Source: an uncultured Candidatus Altimarinota bacterium
GTDB lineage: Bacteria > Patescibacteriota > Gracilibacteria > BD1-5 > UBA6164
Length of the DNA stretch: 37,741 nt
Direction of reading: 5' to 3'
Assembly: GCA_938015455.1 (NCBI GenBank)
Contig: CALLPL010000030.1
Location: 1 to 37,741 of the forward strand
Made by a program: the position numbers and the translations under genes. Positions 5,068 through 27,525 of the stretch are shown in pieces. Each line of letters begins with the position of its first letter. Position 1 is the stretch's first letter. The notes beneath the pieces were generated by a model. That model was not told the DNA's origin. It did not search any database and saw only the letters and a list, made by a program, of their open reading frames with translations.

Positions 5068-8000
5068 TTACATATCAGCAAGGATTTCTTGAGCTATTCT
5101 ATATTGAAGATATTCAAGAATATACGTAATTGTTCTATTATCACTATATTCTGGGAACTTTTGTTCTATTCTATCATATACCATATAGTATTTCTCTGAC
5201 CTCATATCCGTATCTTCAATAGATTCTATTTGATCTATGAGCTTCTCTATAGCATTTTTGTAGACTGCAGAAACCTTTTGTCTCTTTTGAACTGTTGCCT
5301 GTTGAGGGCTTTCTTTGTACTTAGCTTTAATTATCCATCTTCACTCTATGCCTCCAATAGGAGTACAAGTAAAGAGTGTGAGGTTCTTCCCTTCTCATGG
5401 ATTGAGTACTGAAGTGTCACTTGCTGGAGTGTTATATGACTCTTCTGTCACATATTTGTATTGTGAATATCCTCCACTTGAGTTTTTCTCATATATCCAT
5501 ACTTCTTCTCATTTATCCAGTTCTATAATCTTTTGGAAGTGCGTCTTATATCTTCATTGTTCTTGTTTCCAGTATGAACTATGTGCAAAGACTACTTTAT
5601 TACCTACTTCACCATATCCTCTCGTACTGGTTCCTGGATATTCTAGGGCACCTGTTCTCAGTGCTGGATTAATATTTCATTCTCGACCATTAATCATCTT
5701 GTCAAAATCTGGAGAATCTGATCCAAACTCATTAATTGGAATTACCAGTCCATTAGATGGAACAACAATATACTTGTTTGCATCTCTGTCTTCTTCTACC
5801 AGTACTTGTTTCCAGTGATTAATATCATTGTTTGTAGATCCTGCTAGACGGAATACTTCTGAACTTGGGAGTTCCAGCTCTACTCTTCCATTAGGTTTTG
5901 TTTCTACACGTTCACTTATAGGAGTACCGGTTCTTGGGAGTTCTTTTGGAAGAGCTTTAAGAAGTGATTCTCATTTAATCTCTTCTTCTACTTGCTGCTC
6001 TATAAGTACTTCAAGATAGTCTTGGTACTCCCTAATCTGTTGTTCTAGCTCTGATGTATCTGGAGCTGGAGTGCTTGGAGGAGTAATAATAGGAGCTGAT
6101 GGAGTTATTGGAGCTGGTGAAACTGGAGTTCATGATGATGAACTACTACTAGATGAACCACCTCAACCTCTTGATCCACCTCAACCTCAACCTCAACCTG
6201 AAGAAGATGAAGAAGGAGTAGTTGGAGAACCCTCATATACAACTACGGTGTAGTCATTTGTAGTATCTCCATCTGTAGTAGTATTATCCCCGTTTGGAGT
6301 TTCAACATCTCCAGGATTAGATATAGAAGATCATGATCTGTCTGTTGCTGTATCTGAAATATCACTCACATTCCCAGCGCTACTTCCAGCTGTAACGGTT
6401 GCAGTATTTTCTACAAATCCTGCCATTACATCTGGCTGAAGAAGTGAGTATGTTCCTGTGAAAGTTGTTGAATCTGTTGCACCAACAGCGAGTGTAGCTA
6501 TTGGTCATCCACTTACAGTTATAAGAGGATCTGTTACTGTAACATTTGTAAGATCTATATTTCAAGTATTTACAACACTAAAGGTATAGCTTATTGTTTC
6601 ACCAAATTCTCAGTCACCATCACCATTTTCATCATTAAACACTCCTGATTTATAGAGTTCAATTCGTGGAGTTTGTTCAAGGAGATACGTGGTAGGATCC
6701 TCTGTTGTATCATCACCATCGTTTGAGTGCGTATCAAGTGGATTTGGAGTTTCTGTTCCATCTGGATCACTTACTGTGCTCGCGTCTGGATTTGTACCAG
6801 TATCTGAGATATCCTCTACCTCTGATTCATCTGGAGCTATACCTACAACTGTTGCAGTATTTTCTATACCACCAGCAAGTACATCTGCTTGAGTCAGTAC
6901 ATATATAGCCGTATAACTTGTAGAATCTACTCCATTTGGAGCAAGAGTAGGAATACTACTTCATGAAAGTGTTAATCCTGGAAGCGAAGTATCTGTAACT
7001 ATTACATCACTCAAAGGGACATTTCCTGTATTTGTTATCTCAAAACTATAGTTCACCGTATCCCCAGCTCCTATCACTCCTTCTCATGTTGTATCTACTA
7101 CACTAGAAATTGCTTTAATGAGTTTAATAGAAGGTCTTGAAGGGAGTAAGTAGGTAGTTGGATCTTCGGTCATATCACTCACGTCATTTGTATGAGTATC
7201 AAGAGGATTATCTGTCTCCGTCATATCTGGATCACTTACTGGAGATACGTCAGGATTTGTTCCTGTATCTGAAACATCGCTCACAGTTGTTGAACCATCT
7301 GGTGCTGTTCATGTCACTGTTGCTGTATTTTCTATTCCTCAAGCAATGACGTCTGCTGCAGTAAGTATATATGTAGCTGTATAACTCGTAGTATCTACGT
7401 CATTTGGAGCCATGCTAGGAATACTACTTCATGAAAGTGTTAGTCCTGGGAGCGAAGTATCACTCAATGTTACTCCTGAAAGAGTTACATTACCAGTATT
7501 TGTTATCTCAAAACTATAGCTCACTGTGTCTCCTGCTCATATATATCCATCATCTGTTGTATCTGCTACTGATGAAATAGATTTAATAAGCTTAATATCT
7601 GGAATAGGTCCAACAGGTTTAGTCACCGTATCTTGAAGATCATCTAGCTCACCTCTTGCTGGAGTTCCTGATACTGTTGCAGTATTTACAACTTCAGCAT
7701 CATCCGCTTCCTGCTGTGTTACCTCAATAGAAGTACAGCTAAAAGTCCAAACCTCATCTGGTGCAAGAATATTATCTGAACCAATATCAGTAGCCCCATC
7801 AAGTGTTGGCCCTACATCACATTTAGAGTCAAGAAGACTCGTAAATGAAATATCTACGTTTCCTGTATTTGTAAGTTCAAAGCTATAATCTAGAGTATCC
7901 CCAGCCTTCATAGGAGTAGAGTCTGTTGTTTTTTCCAAAGTCCAGCTTGGCATAGGTACAAAATACCCAAAGTCTTGATCAAGATCATCCTGTACGTCAG

Positions 8001-11000
8001 TACCATCAAAAGCAATCGAAGTATTTGACTCATAGTCAGTACCATCATCATCAAAGTCATATGTCTGCACTACTCATGTTGGGAGTGTTGTATCATCTAT
8101 CTGAACTTGGTAGTTTCCAGCTGGGAGATTCTCAAAGAGGTATTCCCCATCACTATTTGTCATAGTAGTTAGAGGATTTCACATCTCGTCTAGCATAGGG
8201 ATATAATCTCCTGGACTAGCTGGGTCTTCTATAAGCAGGTTTACGGTAACATTTTCAATTCCTCACTCTGTTCCATTTTGTGTTCCATCCTCATCCTCAT
8301 CACTCCATATGGTATCTCCTATTGAGCCTGCTACTACCTCAACACAAACATCGTTTGAAATAATATCAAGCGTCACTATATCTGAATTAAGTCCGAAATT
8401 GTTACAATAGAGATCACCCTCCTCTGCAAAAGCAGTATTCATAGTAAGAGTAATATCTCTTGGTGCTCCTGATGCTGGAAAGACTGGAAGCATAGCACGA
8501 ATTGCAGTCACATCAGCTGGATCAGCTGGGAGCGCTCACCAAGTTGTTGTAGCTGTACCTGCTTGTCATGCTGTTGGTACATCCGTTATTGGATCTATAA
8601 GCCCAAGGCTACAAATCGAGTCAAGAGTCGTATTTCCTGAACCAAGACTATCTGATGCTGGCCAGTTACTTGGATGACATGGTCTGTGGTCAATAGTACT
8701 TGGATCATCAGTAGAATATTCAAATGTTTCTCCAGCAGATGAAGGAGTTACTGAAACAAACTCAATTCTCCCATCTGAATCAGAAGTTTGGGTAGAAGTA
8801 TTTGCGTTACTTGGATTTTCTGAGTTAAATCTGAGAGTTGAATCATTTCCATCACCATTATAAGGAAGAATATCAATAAGTTGCCCCTCACCTATATCTG
8901 TTCCTCAGAGATTTGTATAGGTAAGAGTGTTCTCGTAGTCAGTTTGGGGAGTAGTGATATCTTCTTCATCATCTTTTACAATGGCTATACCTGAATCTGA
9001 AACAACTACAATTGATGCTCGACTCTCGTGACGTGCATCAAAAGCATCTTGACACTTAGAAACATTTGCAGCAGTATCACAATGAGAATCATCAGTGAAT
9101 GTTGCAAAATCTGAATCAATAGTTACCCTGTTTTCATAAGATTGTGCTGTAACTCATGGTTGAATTTCCGCAACAACATCAAAACTTGGGAGTGGATCTC
9201 AAACAGTATAACCAGGAACGGTAAAGGTTATATTTCTATTATTTGAAGCTACAGAAGTAGTACAGGTAAGACCTACAGCTGAATATTGACTAGCACAGGT
9301 ATCTGAAACATATTCAAGTCATACAGGTAAAATATCGTTAAACGTCATCTCTACAGCACTCGCATTTGATCACATGGTACTCGGAGAAATAGTAAAGATA
9401 GCTTGGTCTCACTGATCCAAAGGTCCTTGACTACTTGGGTGTACAACCTTATCTATAGCCATACTTGCAGGGAGAATATATACCCTATCTGCGTTCCCTG
9501 TGTTAAATGAATACAAAGGACTTGTAGGATCATCTTCTACATTTAAATTAGCTTGACCAGATGTTGGGTGACCTCATCCATTGATAGTCCATCTCCAATT
9601 TCCATTATACAATCCAGTATAATCATCATATGTTGCTGCTGTATTTGGAATGTAGCTATTGAGAGGTGCTGTTTGTTTTACCTTAAGATCAAAAGAATAA
9701 GATATCCTAGATTTATCTACGAGTGGACTTAGTGCTTCCGAAAACACCAGCGCATAATCTCTATTCCAAGTCATACGAACACGTACTACGCTTGCAGCTC
9801 ATCATGGGAGTGTGGTATAATCAGTAGTCCAATCTGTGGTAGTTGCGTCTCCATCAAGTTCATCCTCACAAGTAGCTGTCCAATGATCGTCACCTGTAGT
9901 AGTATAATCTACATCACTATATTCTACAGTTACTCCATAAGCCAGAGCATCATGTACGGAAGAAGTTGTTAAGTCATTTGCTTTGGTTATCCTCATAACA
10001 GGGTTAAAAAAAGCATGGAGTGGATGATTTTGTCATCAAACATTCCCAAGAGAGGTTGGAAGACCTTGAAATGCTCATGCTTGACCCTTTCAGATACTTC
10101 ACGCAAATTCAAATGAACTTGTATCAAGAGTATCACAAATACCTGAGTTTGCATTAAACCCTCTGTTGTCAGTAATACCAAGAGTTGTACCAACTATTTC
10201 TCATCGAGCAGCTGCTCTTTGTCAAGTCTTTGCTGTTGCTACTTTATGAAAAGATTTTCCAAATGCTAATGTACCGGTAGTACCTGAATTTACTAAAAAG
10301 TCTTCACTATCTGTATAAGGTCCTGTATAAGGAGTTCCTGATTGTGAGGTTACAAGAGCCCCACTTCATCCCCACGCAGTTAATGTTGCAGTATTATTCA
10401 TGAAATATGTTTCTGTTCATCAAGAAAATACTGTTGCGTGTGGGATCCACATTTTCACAGATACCTTTGCAAGTTCAGAATTATCTACTGGAAGGCCAGT
10501 AAACGCGATGTCAATTGGTTGACCAGGTCATGCTTGAGTACAAGTAACAGTTGCTCCAGGAATAGGAGTCACAAAGTCACATGAATCAAGAGGATTTCCT
10601 GTAATATTTCCAAACATTTCAATCATGTCATCATAATCGCCATTTGCATTATCTCACTCAATACTTGCGTCTGATGTACTATGAGTTCCAACCCATGTGT
10701 CTGTAATGGTAAAATCTTGTCTACCTGTACCATCATCTTGAATAAACTCTGAGCCAGTATTATAATTTAGAGCCACATGCCACTCCATTAATGTCCCACG
10801 GAGTGATCAAGATCATGCTGTTCCAGCAGGATAATATCGAGGAGAATAATCTATTTCATCTTCTGCTGCTAGAGAATTAACCGATTTATCTACATTGACT
10901 CCAAAGCCTGCAGTAATTGTTATATCTGGAGTTGTATCTCCTTGAGTAGGTCCAGTATTAGAATTATTATCTGAATTTGAAAGAACTGAAGTTGTAATAA

Positions 11001-11496
11001 TATCAGTATTATTTCATATCGCCTGAGCTACTGGTTGAAAGTTTAATTTTGTTCCTTCGTTATGATCTCAGAGATTACAAAAAAGTGTGTCATTAAGCCC
11101 GTCCGAGTTTGAATCTGAAATGCTTGAATCAGGTGAGACTGCAAATCCATTTGCAATCGTTCGACATTCTGATGGAAGAGTGGTCCAAGCAGCCTTATCA
11201 TTAAGAACTACAGTTGCATTTACATTAGCATCATCTGCATCATTGAGAGATACTTCTACTGAATAGGTAATGAGATCAAAGTTTCTTACAACCTCATTAT
11301 TAGGTGAAGAGTCTGTTCCTGCTGGAGTGCTTGTAGTAGTATCAAAGCTTTCTGTTCCATCAGCAAATATAATAATAGTAGACTCGGTAGCTGGATCTTG
11401 AGCACTTCAGAGTGCGTAGGTCGAGCTTATTGGAGCTATCTGTCACAGCAATCATATGAGCGCTATATTTGATAGTATCTTTTTAAATGTAACCAT
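5068..11496 (-). CDS. Giant secreted SdrD-B/DUF11 repeat protein with in-chain LPRTG motif and C-terminal sortase domain
   Basis: 2142 aa, complete. The signal peptide ends near residue 28 (SSTYA-L). Residues of about 30-1050 are beta-rich and unassigned. An SdrD-B-like domain ([16 protein letters not shown]) lies at about 1059-1177. Four DUF11 repeats follow at about 1182, 1299, 1450 and 1604. A low-complexity Ser/Gly/Pro/Thr linker spans about 1747-1810, and a Glu/Gln-rich coiled coil about 1812-1848. LPRTG is at 1853-1857. A sortase fold covers about 1900-2062: the candidate catalytic His is H1972 (VVFAHSS), Cys is C2044 (LTLFTCT) and Arg is R2053 (GRW). A helical tail of about 80 residues ends in EILADM. 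No transmembrane segment or basic tail follows LPRTG, so it is not a standard cell-wall sorting signal. Sortases are transpeptidases that cleave LPXTG; acting on its own chain or on the neighbouring paralogue is inference. Distant alternative: the sortase domain is only structural. Confidence 0.85.
5311..5790 (-). other. Sortase domain within the giant protein
   Basis: This segment encodes residues of about 1903-2062. The order is that of sortases: a [11 protein letters not shown] strand, VVFAHSS with H1972 (codon 5581-5583), a KGEEVWIYE strand, then [11 protein letters not shown] with C2044 (codon 5365-5367) and R2053 (codon 5338-5340) nine residues later. The TLxTC...R signature is intact. 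The sortase class is not assigned. Confidence 0.85.
5926..5940 (-). other. LPRTG (LPXTG-type) motif
   Basis: Residues 1853-1857 of the giant protein read LPRTG, placed between the coiled coil and the sortase domain of the same chain. It matches the classical sortase recognition motif, but no hydrophobic segment follows, so recognition would have to happen without a membrane-held tail. Confidence 0.6.
6690..7600 (-). repeat. Two similar DUF11 repeat units in the giant gene
   Basis: Two neighbouring units of roughly 455 bases (about 7600-7148 and 7145-6690) are alike in protein and in DNA. Both contain IKLIKxISSV, [12 protein letters not shown] or [28 protein letters not shown] or [25 protein letters not shown] and a TEDPTTYLL ending. 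A related unit occurs in the first giant gene at about 350-810. The likeness points to recent internal duplication or gene conversion. Confidence 0.7.
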
Positions 11497-18701: not shown

Positions 18702-21700
18702 TTATTTCACTATCTTCTTTCTCAAATAGATTGAGTAGTATAGGGCTGGAATAATAAAGAGGGTCATGAATGATCCAGCGAAGAGACCGAATATGATGGT
18801 GAATCAGAGTCCTGCCCAAAAGGCATCTTGGAGGGCGAGAGGGAGTACTCAGAAGAGCGTAGTAAGGGTAGTTACGATGATGGGCTGAAGACGCGATTTC
18901 CCTGCTGCAACGAGTGACTCAACGTAGTCATCAAGCTCTAGTTTCTTCGTTCAAGCATTTCGTACCAGTCTATCAAGATTACGATTGATACGATCAACCA
19001 GGATAATAGCATCATTAACCACAACTCATGTAAGAGCTATAAATCAAATACCAAAAGTCATAGAATATGGATTTCCTGTTACAAAAAGTCCTATATTTAC
19101 TCACAACAGCGCGAGCACTACAGAGTAGAGAATAATAACTGGCTGTGAGTATGAGTTAAATTGAAATACGAGTATCGTAAATATGAGAAATAACGCTATG
19201 AAAAATGACTGAAGTGTTGCCTGAATCAGTTCGGCATTTTCTTCGTTTTCTCCACCTGCACTATAAGAAATTCCTTCTGGAAAGCTATAGGACTCAGCGA
19301 ACTCAATGAGCTTTGGTTGAACCTCTGTAGGAAGTACTCAGGGTTCAAGGTCAGAGTTTGCTCAAATTGTTATTTTTCCATCTTCTCGTCAAATAGAAGA
19401 TAGTCCTGGTTCAAAAGAGTAGCTTACATAGTCTCAAACACGAATCTTCCCTGCACTTGTATTTATCAGCAGGTCGCTAATATCTGTTGGATTAAGTGTA
19501 TCTTCAAACTCTGCTACTGAGAGTACAATATCGTTATCCTCATAACTAGACTGAATAGAACCTGCATTAATACCCGTTATATAAATACGGAGCTCTCAGA
19601 GTATATCGTCTGGAGTGAGTCCTGAAAAACTCAATTTTTCTCTATCAAAACGAAATACAAACTGACCAGGATTTTCGGCTGATGAGGTTGAGGCATTTTT
19701 TGTACCTGGAGTTGATTGAAGAAACTGTTTAAAGTCATCTGCTACCTGCTTGAGTGTATCAATGTCTTTTGAACTTGTCGCATTGAGCTTAATCCCAACA
19801 GGAGATCCTGCTGGAGGACCATTTTCTACGGTTGCTACCTCTACAAGTAAGCCATCTGATTCGAGGACTTTGAGACGAGTAAGTATTTCTGTTTCGAGAT
19901 CAAAAACTGTTTTTTGTCATGCATCTTGACGGACTTTTGCATCTGTGAGTTCGATATATACTGTAATCTCGTTTCCTGAAAGAGTAACATAATATACTTT
20001 CATCTCTTCATAGGATGAAACAACGTCTTCAATATCGTCTATATATCATTCTAAAGACTCTTTATTTGAACCTGTTTGTCCTTCTATACTCATCGTTATA
20101 ATCCCCTCATCCGAAGCAGGAAAGAGCGTAAATCCGATCTTTGGAGAAAGAAATACAAAAGAGAGAATCAAAAGAAGGAAAGGAATAAAGATAGACAGAA
20201 GTCTCGAACTGCGACTCTTTAAAAAACGTGACAGGAGCTTATAATAACCAAGTCCTAAAAATCCTAAGAATTTATCTCGAAGGTTTCCATAAGATTCTTT
20301 TAAACCTTCTTTTCATTCTCTCTGAGATTTAAGAAATTTTGCTTCTTCTTTTGAGAGACTCTCTTCAAACTTTTCATCAATATGATATATTTTTTTCTTT
20401 TTCGACATCCTATAAAATAGTGCTGTTGCAAGCGTCAGAGAGAGTATAAGTGCCGCAAGGAGGGTTATAAATACCGTAATTGGTATATATGCAAGAAATC
20501 GTCCGAGGATCCCAGGAAGGAATATCATAGGAAGAAACGCTACAAGCGTTGTTGCGGTACCACTAATAAGTGGTGAACTCAGATCCTGCACTGCAAGAAT
20601 AACAGCATTTTTTCGACTATATCCTATCCGCTGCCTCTCCGCTGCCCCCTCAATAATTACAATAATCGTGTCTATTGCTATTCACAATGTAAGAACCAAA
20701 GAGAAGTTAGTAAGAAAGTTGAGTGAAAAACCTAGAATATTGAGAACTATAAAAGTAATGAAAAAAGCGAGAGGTAAGAGAATACTCGCAATAATAGACT
20801 CTCTGAGTCCAACAAATATAAATATAGTAATAAATACTAAAACAAGAGTTTGAAGTGCTGTAGTACCAAGGTTTTTATAATCCTCGATAATAACTTCTCA
20901 TAAGTCTTGGGAATATTTTACCTCAAGATTCTCAAATCATGACTCTGTTTCTAGGAAATCTTCAAGAGATCATTTTGCAGACTTTGAAATAGAAAATACA
21001 TTATCTCAGGCCTTCTTATTAAAAGATAGAGTAACATAGTTGAATCCTTTAGCTTCATAAAATCAAAGACTTTTTATAACATCTTCATCATATTCCCTAC
21101 TAATACTCGCAACATCTTTGAGTCTTATACTTGATACTCAACTCCCTTTAACAATTGTGTTTTCAAGGTCAGCTATGACGTCAAACTCTCCATCAAAGCG
21201 AAAGTCATAATTGAGATCACCTATAGTAAAATTTCATAGAGGAGTATTTTTATTATAGGCTCTAAGTGTATTTGAGATTTGCGCTATAGAGAGATCAAGA
21301 AGTTCAAGTTTTTCTTTAGATATGAGTACCTGTATATCATATTCTGATCCTCATCCTCATCCTCAAAATGGATCAGCTCCAGATCATCAAATATCTATAG
21401 AAGCTATTCAACTCTTCCCCTCAAGTTTTGATTGTATTTGGCGAGCCTTTTGCGTGAGACTAAAATTATCTATAGTCGCTCAAGACGAATATATCAGAGC
21501 TTCAAAAAGCAGCTCATTTCTGGTAGATATTTCCTGAACTCTCGTATCATCAGCATCTGTTGGAAAGCTGAGTGTATCTATACGGTCTTTAATATCCGTC
21601 ATAACATTACGAGTCACCACACCATTTTCTAGTTCAACTGTTACAGAGCTTACTCAAACTGATGAGTTAGAACTAATACCTGATATACCTTCTATGTCTT

Positions 21701-21929
21701 CGATTTCTTTTTCAATCTTTTCTGTAATCAAACTATCTATATCTGTAGGATTTACTCAGGAATAAGGAGTAGTTATAGAAATAATACCAAATTTAATATC
21801 AGGGCTTGATTCCTTTGGTATCTGAAAAACCGCTAAAAGCCCTACTACGATAATCAAAAAGAGAAAGAGAAATGAAACCTTATAGTTCTCTATCCAAAAT
21901 GTAAAAAATCCTTTTTCGAGTTTTTGCAT
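18702..21929 (-). CDS. RND-family efflux transporter permease (AcrB/HAE1 type)
   Basis: 1075 aa, full length. The usual plan is visible: TM1 (YKVSFLFLFLIIVVGLLAVF), a porter domain, TM2-6, a charged linker between TM6 and TM7 (KKKKIYHIDEKFEE), TM7, a second porter domain, and TM8-12 ending in PALYYSIYLRKK. These pumps use the ion gradient to expel drugs, lipids or other hydrophobic compounds. In TM4 the proton-relay pair DD of AcrB is D420-T421 (GIAIDTIIVIIE), and TM10 has GVVVNDAIILVD where AcrB has a Lys. The ATG follows the adaptor stop by a single base, so the two are translationally coupled. No outer-membrane channel gene is nearby. Confidence 0.92.
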
Positions 21930-21930
21930 A

Positions 21931-24018
21931 TTATTTTTCTACAATTTTAAATTTATTCTCATCAAAGTTTCCTATATCATTCGTAATAATATTGAGGTCT
22001 TTACAATATTTTGCGCAAGAGACTATTTCTACTTGCTCTCAAAACACCTCTCACATTCGTACTCGCACATCTGCAAACGATGATCACGAAAGCGTCTTCA
22101 CCGTTCCAATCTCTCATCATTGCGTTGTTATTATATTAAGAGGAAGTAGCATCTTTCCTGTTTCAATGGGAACCTCTACTGATACGAGATTTCCAATGAG
22201 GTTAGTTCCACTTTGAAAAGTGATCGTTGCCTTATAGTTTAAATTCGTATCTGCTATATCTGATATCGCGTAAATACTTCCTGTAATTCTCTCTCCATCT
22301 ACTTCAACAAAAACTTTCTGGCCTTTTTTCACAAGGTCTTTTTCTCAGGCAGAAAATGAAACTTCTACCTCTGGAGTTTTGTCACTCACAATACGAAAAA
22401 GAGGAGTTCACTGAGATACTTCTTGGCCAGCATCAACAAGTACATCAGATACTGTACCATTAATAGGAGAACTTACAGTGAGTTTTTCAAACTCTTTTGC
22501 AGACGAACTGTAGCCAATCCTAGCTTCTTGTATAGCGTTCGAAAGACTTCTCAGAGTGACATCTTTATTCTTTCTTGCATTAGAGAGAGTGTTCTGAGCG
22601 GATCTAATTTGTGTCTCTAGGCTTGCAATATTATCATTAATCCCTATGCGGGTTCTCTCAAGGCCCGTTTCTGCTGAGAGTTCTCCACTCTTTGTATTTC
22701 TCAGAAGTATCGCTTTGTCCTTTTCTAAGACAAGTTTATCTTTCTCTAAATTATTTCTATCTTTTTCCAGTCCAATTTTATCTTTTTCTAAGGTCTTTAT
22801 ATCTTGCTCTTGGAGTTCTATATTTCTGAGTATTGAGTTTTGATTATCCCTATATGTCACAAAAAAACTTTCTACTCATGATTCAAAAGAAAGAAAAGCC
22901 CCATAGTTTCACTGTAATTGAGACTGATATCAATTAATACTTCCTATAAAAGCATTAATCTCAATATCTCCAAGACTCCCAACACTCTTTATAGAATTAT
23001 TTATTGTTTGTTCAAGTGAACTTAAAAGAGTCTTCGAATCTTCATATCACATTTCTATATCACCTATGATGTCTCTGATTTGTTCCTGAGAAAAACTCCC
23101 AGCATCTATTTCTAAACTCAAATTCTTAAAAGCTTCTGAATTCCTATATTCTATTAATTCTATAAGCCTGGTTTCTGATAGAGTTCTTTGAACTCTATCA
23201 TTTGCTCATAGGTAACTTTCAAAGCTGTCGTTTTCATTTCTGTTGAGAAAGGTTACTCCTAGAATTTCATCACTAAACTCTATGATATCATCCAGAAATA
23301 TTATGAGAGTATTATATTGAGTCTTAAGAGTTGCTCCATAACTCTCGATATTTTGTGCATCAGCTCGCAAACGATCCTCATAATCTAGTCTTGATTTTTC
23401 TATATTATTTTTGAACTGCTCTATTTGTAGATCAAGCTTGTCTGCTTGGAGGTCAAGCTTGTCTTGTTGGACAATAAGTTTATCTGCTTGCAGATCGAGT
23501 TTTTCGATATTTCACAAATCTTGAGAGTTTTTGAGAGAATCTTCTGCCTGAATAATACTTTGAGTACTGTCTTTTCTTAAAGTAGCAAGACTTCTCTGTA
23601 GATTCTCAAGGTTTACACCCGCATCAAATATTTGTTTATCAAGAGATATCTTTTGCGACTCATAATTAATTTGCGCCCTTTCGATACTATTATTTCCTCT
23701 CTGAAGATTAATACTATAGCTCCCAATATTATCCTCGAGTTTTGCAAGATTTTTACCTACTCATACTGAGTCTCACGGCTTAACATACACACTCGAAACT
23801 CTTCCACTCGCATTCGCCGTAAGTTCAATATCTTGGCTTGAACTTACTTGGCCTGTCTTTTTTAGAAAACTCTCTCCTGAAAAGCTTTTTCAAGAAGTTG
23901 TTTCCACAAAAAAATCAGTTTTTATTATTTCTTCTTCATCTTGCTCTTCTCAATCCCTTCAAGAACATGATGATAAGAAGAATGATATTAGCAAGAGAAG
24001 TGCAATTATTTTTTTCAT
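21931..24018 (-). CDS. RND periplasmic-adaptor-like (membrane fusion) lipoprotein with extra-long coiled coil
   Basis: 695 aa, against about 350-420 for usual adaptors. The signal ends in a lipobox LSSC with C18 as the lipidated residue. Residues of about 45-90 hold the first lipoyl half (GQVSSSQDIELTANASGRV). Then comes some 380 residues of alpha-hairpin with heptad microrepeats (LQADKL and LEKDK). The second lipoyl half is EFEKLTVSSPINGTVSDVL, followed by the beta-barrel and membrane-proximal parts (FRIVSDKTPEVEVSF). The protein would link the RND pump to the outer envelope. The long hairpin may bridge a thicker or unusual envelope. It lies between an AbrB-like gene (10-base gap) and the pump gene (1-base gap). 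Confidence 0.85.
22720..22800 (-). repeat. 21-base microrepeats coding LEKDK heptads
   Basis: Four near-copies of a seven-codon unit beginning LEKDK or LEKDR sit in a row in the adaptor coiled coil. A second cluster at about 23420-23500 codes repeats of LQADKL. They suggest growth of the hairpin by slippage. Confidence 0.65.
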
Positions 24019-24028
24019 GCTGCTCATA

Positions 24029-24837: not shown

Positions 24838-27525
24838 CTATTGTAAATATTTATCAATTTCAGCGAATGGAATCTGTTTGCTTGTGAGCTTTTGAGTTCC
24901 CCTATAGATACTATCTATGTTCCCCCCTGAGACAGAAATATTATAGCTTTTTCACTCTAAATCAAACTTAAAAGTCATTTTTTTTGTGCGTGAACTAAAT
25001 TGCATAACCACACCTTCTGTTTCATAATCTTGATTTAGAATGCTGTATTGTCAAGAATAAGCAGAAATATGAGTAAATATTTCTTCAATACGTCACGGAA
25101 AATCCGTAAGTGAAACTCTCCCTGAGATTTGTATGGGTGTACTTCAGAATACTGGTTTAATATTTGTCTCTGTTCAAGAATATACCCTGAGTTTTATGTT
25201 TTCAAAATAGTGATCCTCTTTGTTAAGAATATATTTTCCATCCATAACAGCTTGATAATTCGAAATATTTCAGATAGAAAGCTTTCATAAAGATAGTGGT
25301 GCTCCTTCTATAAATATATCGTAAAGTTTTTCATTCTTACTCACTCTTATATTTTTATACTCTAAGGGAAGAACATCCTTAATAACTGAGAACTCTCCAT
25401 TATCTCCTAAAAGTATATCTCGCTTAAATACTATCTCTGTTTTATCTTCGTTTGGTCCTGCTTCAATATTTATAAACTCCTCAACTTTATTTGTTTGCTT
25501 TGCAAAAAAGGTATTGATAAAGAATTTCTTAAAATTATATAGATCTTTCTCTTCTATTGAGGCCATTTTATATTTTTCTTCCCAATCTGACTCGACTATA
25601 TCTAGTTTATAAATAAATGGTGATGCTACTGAGTTAACTGAAATATCTTGGATTCTATTTGCAGCATCTGGATAAAGTGTGAAATTAAAGATCTTTCATC
25701 TGATATATGCTTGCTTAATTTTATAGAAACCTTTTCATACTTCGATACTAGCGTTTTCAATAGACATTTCTTGAAACTGATTGAGATAGGATCTTATTTT
25801 TGCATCACTTAGAGATGTATCATCACTTCAAAAGGTATTTAAGCTTAGAAGATTCTTTTTTGAAATATCATATTCTGAAACATATGATTCATAATTCTTT
25901 AATGCAAGGAGATATTCTGATAAACTTGCTTTTGATCAGAGAATTCAAGTAACTATAGCTTGGTCTCGTGAACTCGTCATTGAAAGAAACTTTTTATTTT
26001 GCTCATAAATATCAAATATCTCTTCCAGCTCTACCCTAAGAAGTTCCACCTCTCATCATGTAACTCTATTTTCTGAATTATAAACGAGCAGACCATCTGT
26101 ATTTCTCTCTGTTTTAAAATACTGAGTCCTTAAAAAAGAATCAACTTTTGTTAAGATATCATTAAACACATAGAGTGTTGAGATTCGAGTATTTTTCTCA
26201 GAATCATAAAATGACTTCGTAACTTCTGTATGGTTCCTTAATATATCAATGAATGAGTTCATTGAAAAGTTTTCACCATCTCCATCTAGTATAAAAAGAA
26301 GTTGTTCTTGTAAAAAATAAGAGAAGTACTGATTTCTAAGAGTCTTCTGTGAGTTTGAAGTACTTTTTAGATTTGTAAATTTTTGAAACGACTCTAGAAA
26401 TATTTCTTCAGTTTCACGTTCAATTCTACCATTGTCATCATAATACGAAAAGAGAGAGAAACCTGCTAATGGGAATTCATATTTATCTTTTGAAGGTAAC
26501 GCATCACCAATCAAAGTAAATAGGATCTTAGGGCTTATATAATCCCTACCAGTAAATGCATATAGCAAACTCATATAGTCTTCTTTTAGCAACAGAAGTT
26601 CTCTATATGATTCAGTATCTAATTCCCTAAGGGTTTCTAGATCTTTTTCTACCTGAGATACTAACTGCGTATTATATTCCTTTGAGTTCATAATATCACT
26701 ATATCCTCTAAGAATAATATTCTTATAAAAGGCTATCTTTTTTTGTTTATTTACAAATAAGTGTATGTATCTATTTGCAGCTGTAAATCCTGATATTTGA
26801 GATACCTTCTGGTCTAGAAATAAATCTAACTTCTGAGTATATACCTTATCCCTATTTAAGATATGAGCAGCTGCTGATTGGAGAAAGCTTTCTTCTCCCT
26901 CACTATATTTCTTTGCCACTTTATCTCACTGTATATCCTGTACTTGGTTTCATAGGTATCAGAGAGTATAGACTGTTTGAACACGGAGTGCATCAGAATT
27001 TTTCAAGAAACTCCCCCTACTTGGTTGAAATACAATATACATATGAGGTTGCAATAGGATATCTGTATAATGCTCTGATCATTCTTCGTTTGTAAGCTTT
27101 ATCTTTAAAGGAGTATTGAGTGAGAGGATAAATACTTTTCCTGTATCTGTTTCACTATCAATAAAAATTTCTCCAATACCTTCTTGCTCAATAGCGTATC
27201 ATGTTCCTTGTAATACATATTTTCTTCGTAGATCTCTTAGGGAAGTAAAATACTTTCAAGTATTTGTAATATCAATCTGTAAACTTCAAGATTGAGTATC
27301 TATTTCTGGAGTTTCTCAACTACTCAGAACTGTTTCAAATATGCTCAAATCATTTGACTGCATTGTTCCTCATGCGTAACTAAGAGCCCCTGAAGAATTT
27401 TTCTCATCAAAAGAAAAAACTGGAGCCTCAAAATATTCTGCCTCAGAGAAAAAACTTGTAGCTACAATAACAGCAAACACTAGGAATAGAAACAAACTTA
27501 GTATGATACGAAAAAGAAAAAACAT
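24838..27525 (-). CDS. Large exported protein of unknown function
   Basis: 895 aa with no in-frame TAA or TAG. The N-terminus (MFFLFRIILSLFLFLVFAV) is a signal peptide or membrane anchor. The rest is a mix of strands and helices with many Phe, Tyr and Lys, without known repeats, cell-wall motifs or catalytic signatures that I can name. Residues of about 200-490 are helical (from AKKYSEGEESFLQSAAAHIL), and the C-terminal part is more strand-rich. It is followed 2 bases later by the acidic membrane protein and preceded by a weak terminator. A secreted structural or binding protein is likely. Confidence 0.7.

Follow-up and report, generated by a model that had tools for sequence, protein, structure and literature searches.

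A giant adhesin with an LPRTG motif and a sortase domain in one chain: a candidate self-sorting surface protein of Gracilibacteria

Our analysis showed that an LPRTG motif (residues 1853-1857) and a sortase domain (Pfam PF04203) lie in one 2142-aa chain, as an earlier note on this DNA had claimed. We think it somewhat better than even (a probability of about 55%) that this chain is a self-sorting adhesin, in which the sortase would act only once, cutting its own LPxTG between T and G and passing the adhesin on to an amine. The textbook arrangement is a single membrane enzyme that acts in trans on many substrates. In the present case, the substrate and its enzyme seem to have been merged into one secreted chain, and to have been kept so across several genera. 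If this reading is true, it would amount to one-enzyme, one-product surface display without a membrane-held sortase, in a group of likely epibionts about whose ways of attaching little is known.

Gene and domain layout

The window (the whole stretch of DNA that was analysed, 37,741 nucleotides) is contig C30 of a 48-contig, 1.33-Mb genome (G000) in which TGA is read as glycine (genetic code 25). When the window was translated with tables 11 and 25, table 11 gave no long ORFs at all. The adhesin-sortase gene (P0001; 5068..11496, minus strand) contains 54 TGA codons, and its frame is open only with TGA as glycine. The coordinates given for the protein in the earlier note, 5068-6300, have to be extended to the full gene, 5068-11496, of which they cover only the C-terminal fifth.

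All features of the chain are given here on the minus strand. It begins with a signal peptide, recognised by inspection of the translation (about residues 1-28; 11413..11496), followed by a DUF11 domain (residues 689-802; 9091..9432; Pfam PF01345), an SdrD B-like domain (SdrD_B, residues 1058-1159; 8020..8325; PF17210, E 1.5e-14) and four stretches of DUF7507/DUF11-type repeats (about residues 1183-1720; 6337..7950; PF24346, E 1e-78), with DUF7507 as the main repeat. A Ser/Gly-rich linker read from the translation (residues 1758-1791; 6124..6225) leads to a predicted helix or coil (residues about 1815-1851; 5944..6051; an AlphaFold helix at model residues 17-36), which stands just N-terminal of the LPRTG motif (5926..5940), itself 285 residues short of the C-terminus of the chain. 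The sortase barrel (residues about 1908-2060; 5317..5775) is placed by Pfam, AlphaFold and VIA-align; its Pfam match covers residues 1944-2059 and scores 44.5 bits against a cut-off of 26.6 (E 1.6e-11). The triad consists of H1972 (5581-5583), C2044 and R2053, at the positions that had been claimed for it. Up to this point the layout (signal peptide, repeats, linker, helix, motif, sortase) stands as first described; what had been overlooked is a helical tail of about 65 aa after the sortase (residues about 2077-2142; 5071..5268), which forms three helices in the AlphaFold model and is conserved among homologues.

The hydrophobic helix and positively charged tail typical of LPXTG wall-anchored proteins are absent downstream of LPRTG, again in agreement with the earlier note. 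A Kyte-Doolittle scan of the whole window chain found no segment that reaches the transmembrane threshold, and no fused chain of the family has a hydrophobic segment after its LPxTG. LPRTG 1853-1857 is the only LPxTG in the 2142 aa. When the chain's composition was shuffled, 8% of trials had an LPxTG somewhere in the 2142 aa and 0.2% had one within a given 90-aa stretch N-terminal of the sortase; a chance motif can be ruled out, as the homologous place is conserved in 18 chains.

Conservation of the motif where passenger and enzyme are joined and where they are apart

In a search of 77 genomes from the order and 380 from the phylum, a cassette profile gave matches above 200 bits only within the order, with ordinary sortases at about 113 bits or less elsewhere. 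A scan of 84,980 named genomes mostly recovered these members again, under the labels Gracilibacteria, Absconditabacterales or unnamed bacterium. Complete fused chains run from about 500 to 3451 aa, each with a signal peptide at its start; their passengers differ widely, and the LPxTG-sortase-tail cassette is common to all. Several genomes have at least two fused genes. One of them, G027, has three copies (L050, L051 and L052, on contigs C2, C19 and C22) with identical barrels, different passengers and the motifs LPETG, LPQTG and LAQTG, a pattern that suggests gene conversion or cassette shuffling. An assembly chimera is unlikely, given that this genome has two fused chains and that nine other genome bins have the fusion as well.

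For the motif itself, we compared 18 fused sequences: the window chain, a 2353-aa copy from the same genome and 16 chains from related Gracilibacteria and Absconditabacterales. An LPxTG-like motif is present in 18/18 of these passenger-plus-sortase chains, 186-217 residues N-terminal of the catalytic Cys (186-199 outside the G027 group, which has an insertion and a distance of 215-217). The family motif can be written as P-x-x-L-[P/L/A]-[K/Q/R/E]-[T/S]-G, mostly with TP next. Its P at -3, L and G never vary, 17 of the 18 have T and the remaining one S, and the linker around the motif is variable. The triad (H174, C246 and R255 of the aligned segment) is likewise invariant in every homologue aligned (16 alignment rows). 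Noncanonical motifs occur among the fused chains, LLKTG in two and A for P in another two (LARTG and LAQTG); these are weaker than the canonical LPxTG and count against the self-sorting reading.

We found four detached sortases of the fused clade, with no adhesin part: one in this genome, on contig C8, and those of G032, G010 and G054 (C34). The triad is kept in all four and the LPxTG motif in none. In the tree, all four fall within the fused clade, with support of 100/97 for C8 and 100/98 for G054 (both starred) and weak placement of G032 and G010. The C8 sortase (281 aa, with an N-terminal membrane helix) is 65% identical to the window chain over the enzyme and has KIPQTRAS at the motif position, in which IPQTR looks like a decayed remnant of the motif. 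The converse arrangement is seen in two genomes, where an adhesin directly adjoining a fused adhesin-sortase gene (L140:1987-3885 in G040; L199, G041:C12 near 45650-45886) keeps the pre-motif helix and the tail, without a sortase and without LPxTG. Among the ordinary sortases compared, LPxTG is absent near the sortase domain. The motif thus goes with the joining of passenger and enzyme in a single chain and is missing where one stands without the other, which we regard as good but not final evidence, from small sets (18 fused chains, 4 detached sortases, 2 sortase-less adhesins) of related sequences. Loss of the motif once sortase and passenger separate favours self-recognition.

A role of the tail in the adhesin itself is probable, given that the sortase-less adhesins have kept it. 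A tail search of this genome found it nowhere outside the two sortase chains; in other genomes, the matches to L197 (G036) and L203 (G027) are probably due to chance, and a further match was to L201, also of G027.

Proposed mechanism, predicted fold and alternative readings

In the self-sorting reading, the signal peptide would export the chain, and the C-terminal sortase domain would take the LPxTG of the same chain, about 190 residues upstream, as its substrate, as the co-conservation of the two suggests. C2044 would cut between T1856 and G1857 and keep the adhesin as a thioester; a cut at T-G with a thioester on the Cys is established sortase chemistry. The adhesin would next pass to an amine on the cell envelope, a Gly-sortase-tail fragment would be left behind, and each enzyme molecule would make one turnover, on its own passenger. 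More speculatively, the C-terminal tail and the pre-motif helix might serve to keep the chain at the surface until it is processed. Engineered purification fusions also have a sortase and LPETG in one chain and cut themselves in cis (PMC10334657), so that one-chain chemistry is known to work, though these fusions are man-made and the order of parts is opposite (sortase-LPETG-cargo there, cargo-LPxTG-sortase here). The window chain would be a natural self-processing sortase cassette comparable with such engineered self-cleaving sortase tags. Counting against self-sorting, the N-terminal Gly of the enzyme fragment would be left near the active site, where it could lead to reversal of the reaction. 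It is improbable that the sortase couples the giant adhesin to amines of another cell, a partner or prey, instead of to its own wall; if true, this would give an ultra-small epibiotic bacterium a covalent, self-catalysed grip on that cell.

A sortase barrel is predicted confidently in the AlphaFold model of residues 1799-2142 (16-sequence alignment, mean pLDDT 77.7), alongside a triad and a fused-chain LPxTG that are conserved in homologues. VIA-align of this model against A. oris SrtC-1 (2xwg) gave Z 16.4 and an rmsd of 2.3 over 141 residues, and a second model, of a G027 protein, keeps the barrel (Z 14.5). The barrel fold is shared with the class C (pilus) sortases at a Z of about 14-16; at the same time, the solved folds nearest to it come from sortase classes A, C and E with about the same score, and no NCBIfam class model exceeds its cut-off (classes C, D and E each about 23 bits against cut-offs of 140-165, the class C cut-off being 160).

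The position of the motif in the window model brings in a first alternative, in which LPxTG is a pseudo-substrate lid held over the active site in cis, as DP(W/F/Y) is in class C enzymes, and the opened enzyme acts on other proteins. Alignments of lid-bearing class C sortases begin at model residue 42-46, those of class A and E sortases mostly at about 95-107. The lids of S. pneumoniae SrtC1 (D58-P59-W60) and GBS SrtC1 (D49-P50-Y51) both fill the groove (PMC3166054). From the first and last aligned residues alone, ungapped extension at the alignment starts would place these two lids at model residues 53-55 and about 60-63, with LPRTG at 55-59. The motif stretch (41-60), of block pLDDT 73 and 66, is locally ordered and is flanked by two disordered stretches below 50. 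The place of the motif in this model would match that of the class C active-site lid. The same superposition was not reproduced in the second model, where alignments start near residue 102, so that the likeness holds in one of two models. The aligned segment N-terminal of the barrel has no DPW, DPF or DPY lid; LPxTG takes its place and, unlike in class C, stands at the end of a passenger about 1850 residues long. An intact LPxTG is what a sortase takes as substrate, not an inert plug, and a lid required by the enzyme should persist in the detached sortases, which have the triad and would still need a lid; its absence there counts against this reading, which we consider unlikely.

A little less likely again is a pilus-like polymer with one enzyme per subunit, in which the sortase cuts the LPxTG of a neighbouring chain and joins that chain to an amine of a further one. 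The same sequence facts fit this reading, the occurrence of two or more fused genes in a genome would suit it, and pilus sortases are among the closest solved folds; on the other hand, these about tie with classes A and E, no acceptor lysine motif was identified, and the near-constant spacing of motif and enzyme favours action in cis.

The suggestion in the earlier note that the sortase could act on the paralogue next door found no support. This giant adhesin (P0002; 1..4926, minus strand) has its C-terminus beyond the contig end. Its closest relative, L132 from an Absconditabacterales bin (63% identity over 1114 aa), has an LPRTG and a sortase of its own, and P0002 most likely has its own sortase beyond the contig end as well. 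Nor do the two relatives with a sortase-less neighbour adhesin speak for a substrate in trans, as that neighbour is also without LPxTG. Residues 826-950 of P0002 weakly match the isopeptide-forming fimbrial domain TIGR04226 (24.5 bits against a cut-off of 30).

Quite improbable, in our view, is hydrolysis of LPxT-G by the sortase, shedding the adhesin from a tail-anchored stump. Some sortases hydrolyse when an acceptor is absent, and the tail and helix kept by the sortase-less adhesins may be the real anchor; against this, sortases are mainly transpeptidases, and anchoring by the tail is only putative. That the motif instead serves the ordinary membrane sortase of the genome, with the fused domain incidental, is very improbable: the genome does have such a sortase and classic LPxTG proteins with helix and basic tail, but this motif lacks both helix and tail, and a signal for a trans enzyme should persist in the sortase-less neighbour adhesins, which lost it although their genomes have an ordinary sortase.

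Other sortases in the genome and related systems

The genome has four sortase domains, in the window chain, a second giant on contig C36, the C8 protein and a C19 protein. The C36 giant is the 2353-aa copy with motif and sortase; its C-terminal part is 74% identical to the window chain, its cassette is P0001-like and its N-terminal part P0002-like. The C19 sortase is an ordinary membrane sortase of 333 aa, distant in the tree. An LPxTG-anchor search of the genome for trans partners gave only two convincing conventional proteins (G000:C6:68273-68356 and G000:C36:31369-31464), with LPETG and LPQAG, a membrane helix and a basic tail in that order. Judging from these substrates, this genome does make use of ordinary LPxTG sorting.

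With Gram-positive LPXTG wall sorting the window chain shares a signal peptide, repeats, LPxTG and a sortase with a His/Cys/Arg triad; it differs in that substrate and enzyme are one chain, with no hydrophobic helix or basic tail past LPxTG and no membrane anchor on the enzyme. The open-licence papers that we read on sortases in Gracilibacteria, Absconditabacteria or Patescibacteria mention only ordinary sortases, and among the open-licence papers that a broad search for fused sortases brought up we recognised engineering work and no native fusion. None of the parts is new; what the literature searched did not show is their occurrence together in a single native chain with a conserved motif.

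A different joining of a DUF11-like adhesin to a sortase-like domain in one frame is seen at L120:1015-2586, in a genome of another Patescibacteria class that uses table 11 (G202). Like the window chain, L120 has LPRTG; unlike it, L120 has the full classic sorting signal (LPRTG, membrane helix, RRLKK), followed by a second membrane helix and the sortase-like domain, in which the Cys is replaced by Ser (LQTSYPIG). From its sequence, L120 reads as an independent adhesin-sortase fusion, the sortase of which is possibly inactive.

Elsewhere in the window, an 895-aa protein (24838-27525, minus strand) has no Pfam match at E 0.001. Sortase sorting is typical of monoderms; in this genome, which also uses it, an AcrB-type transporter gene adjoins one for an HlyD-type fusion protein (18702-24027 of the window, minus strand).
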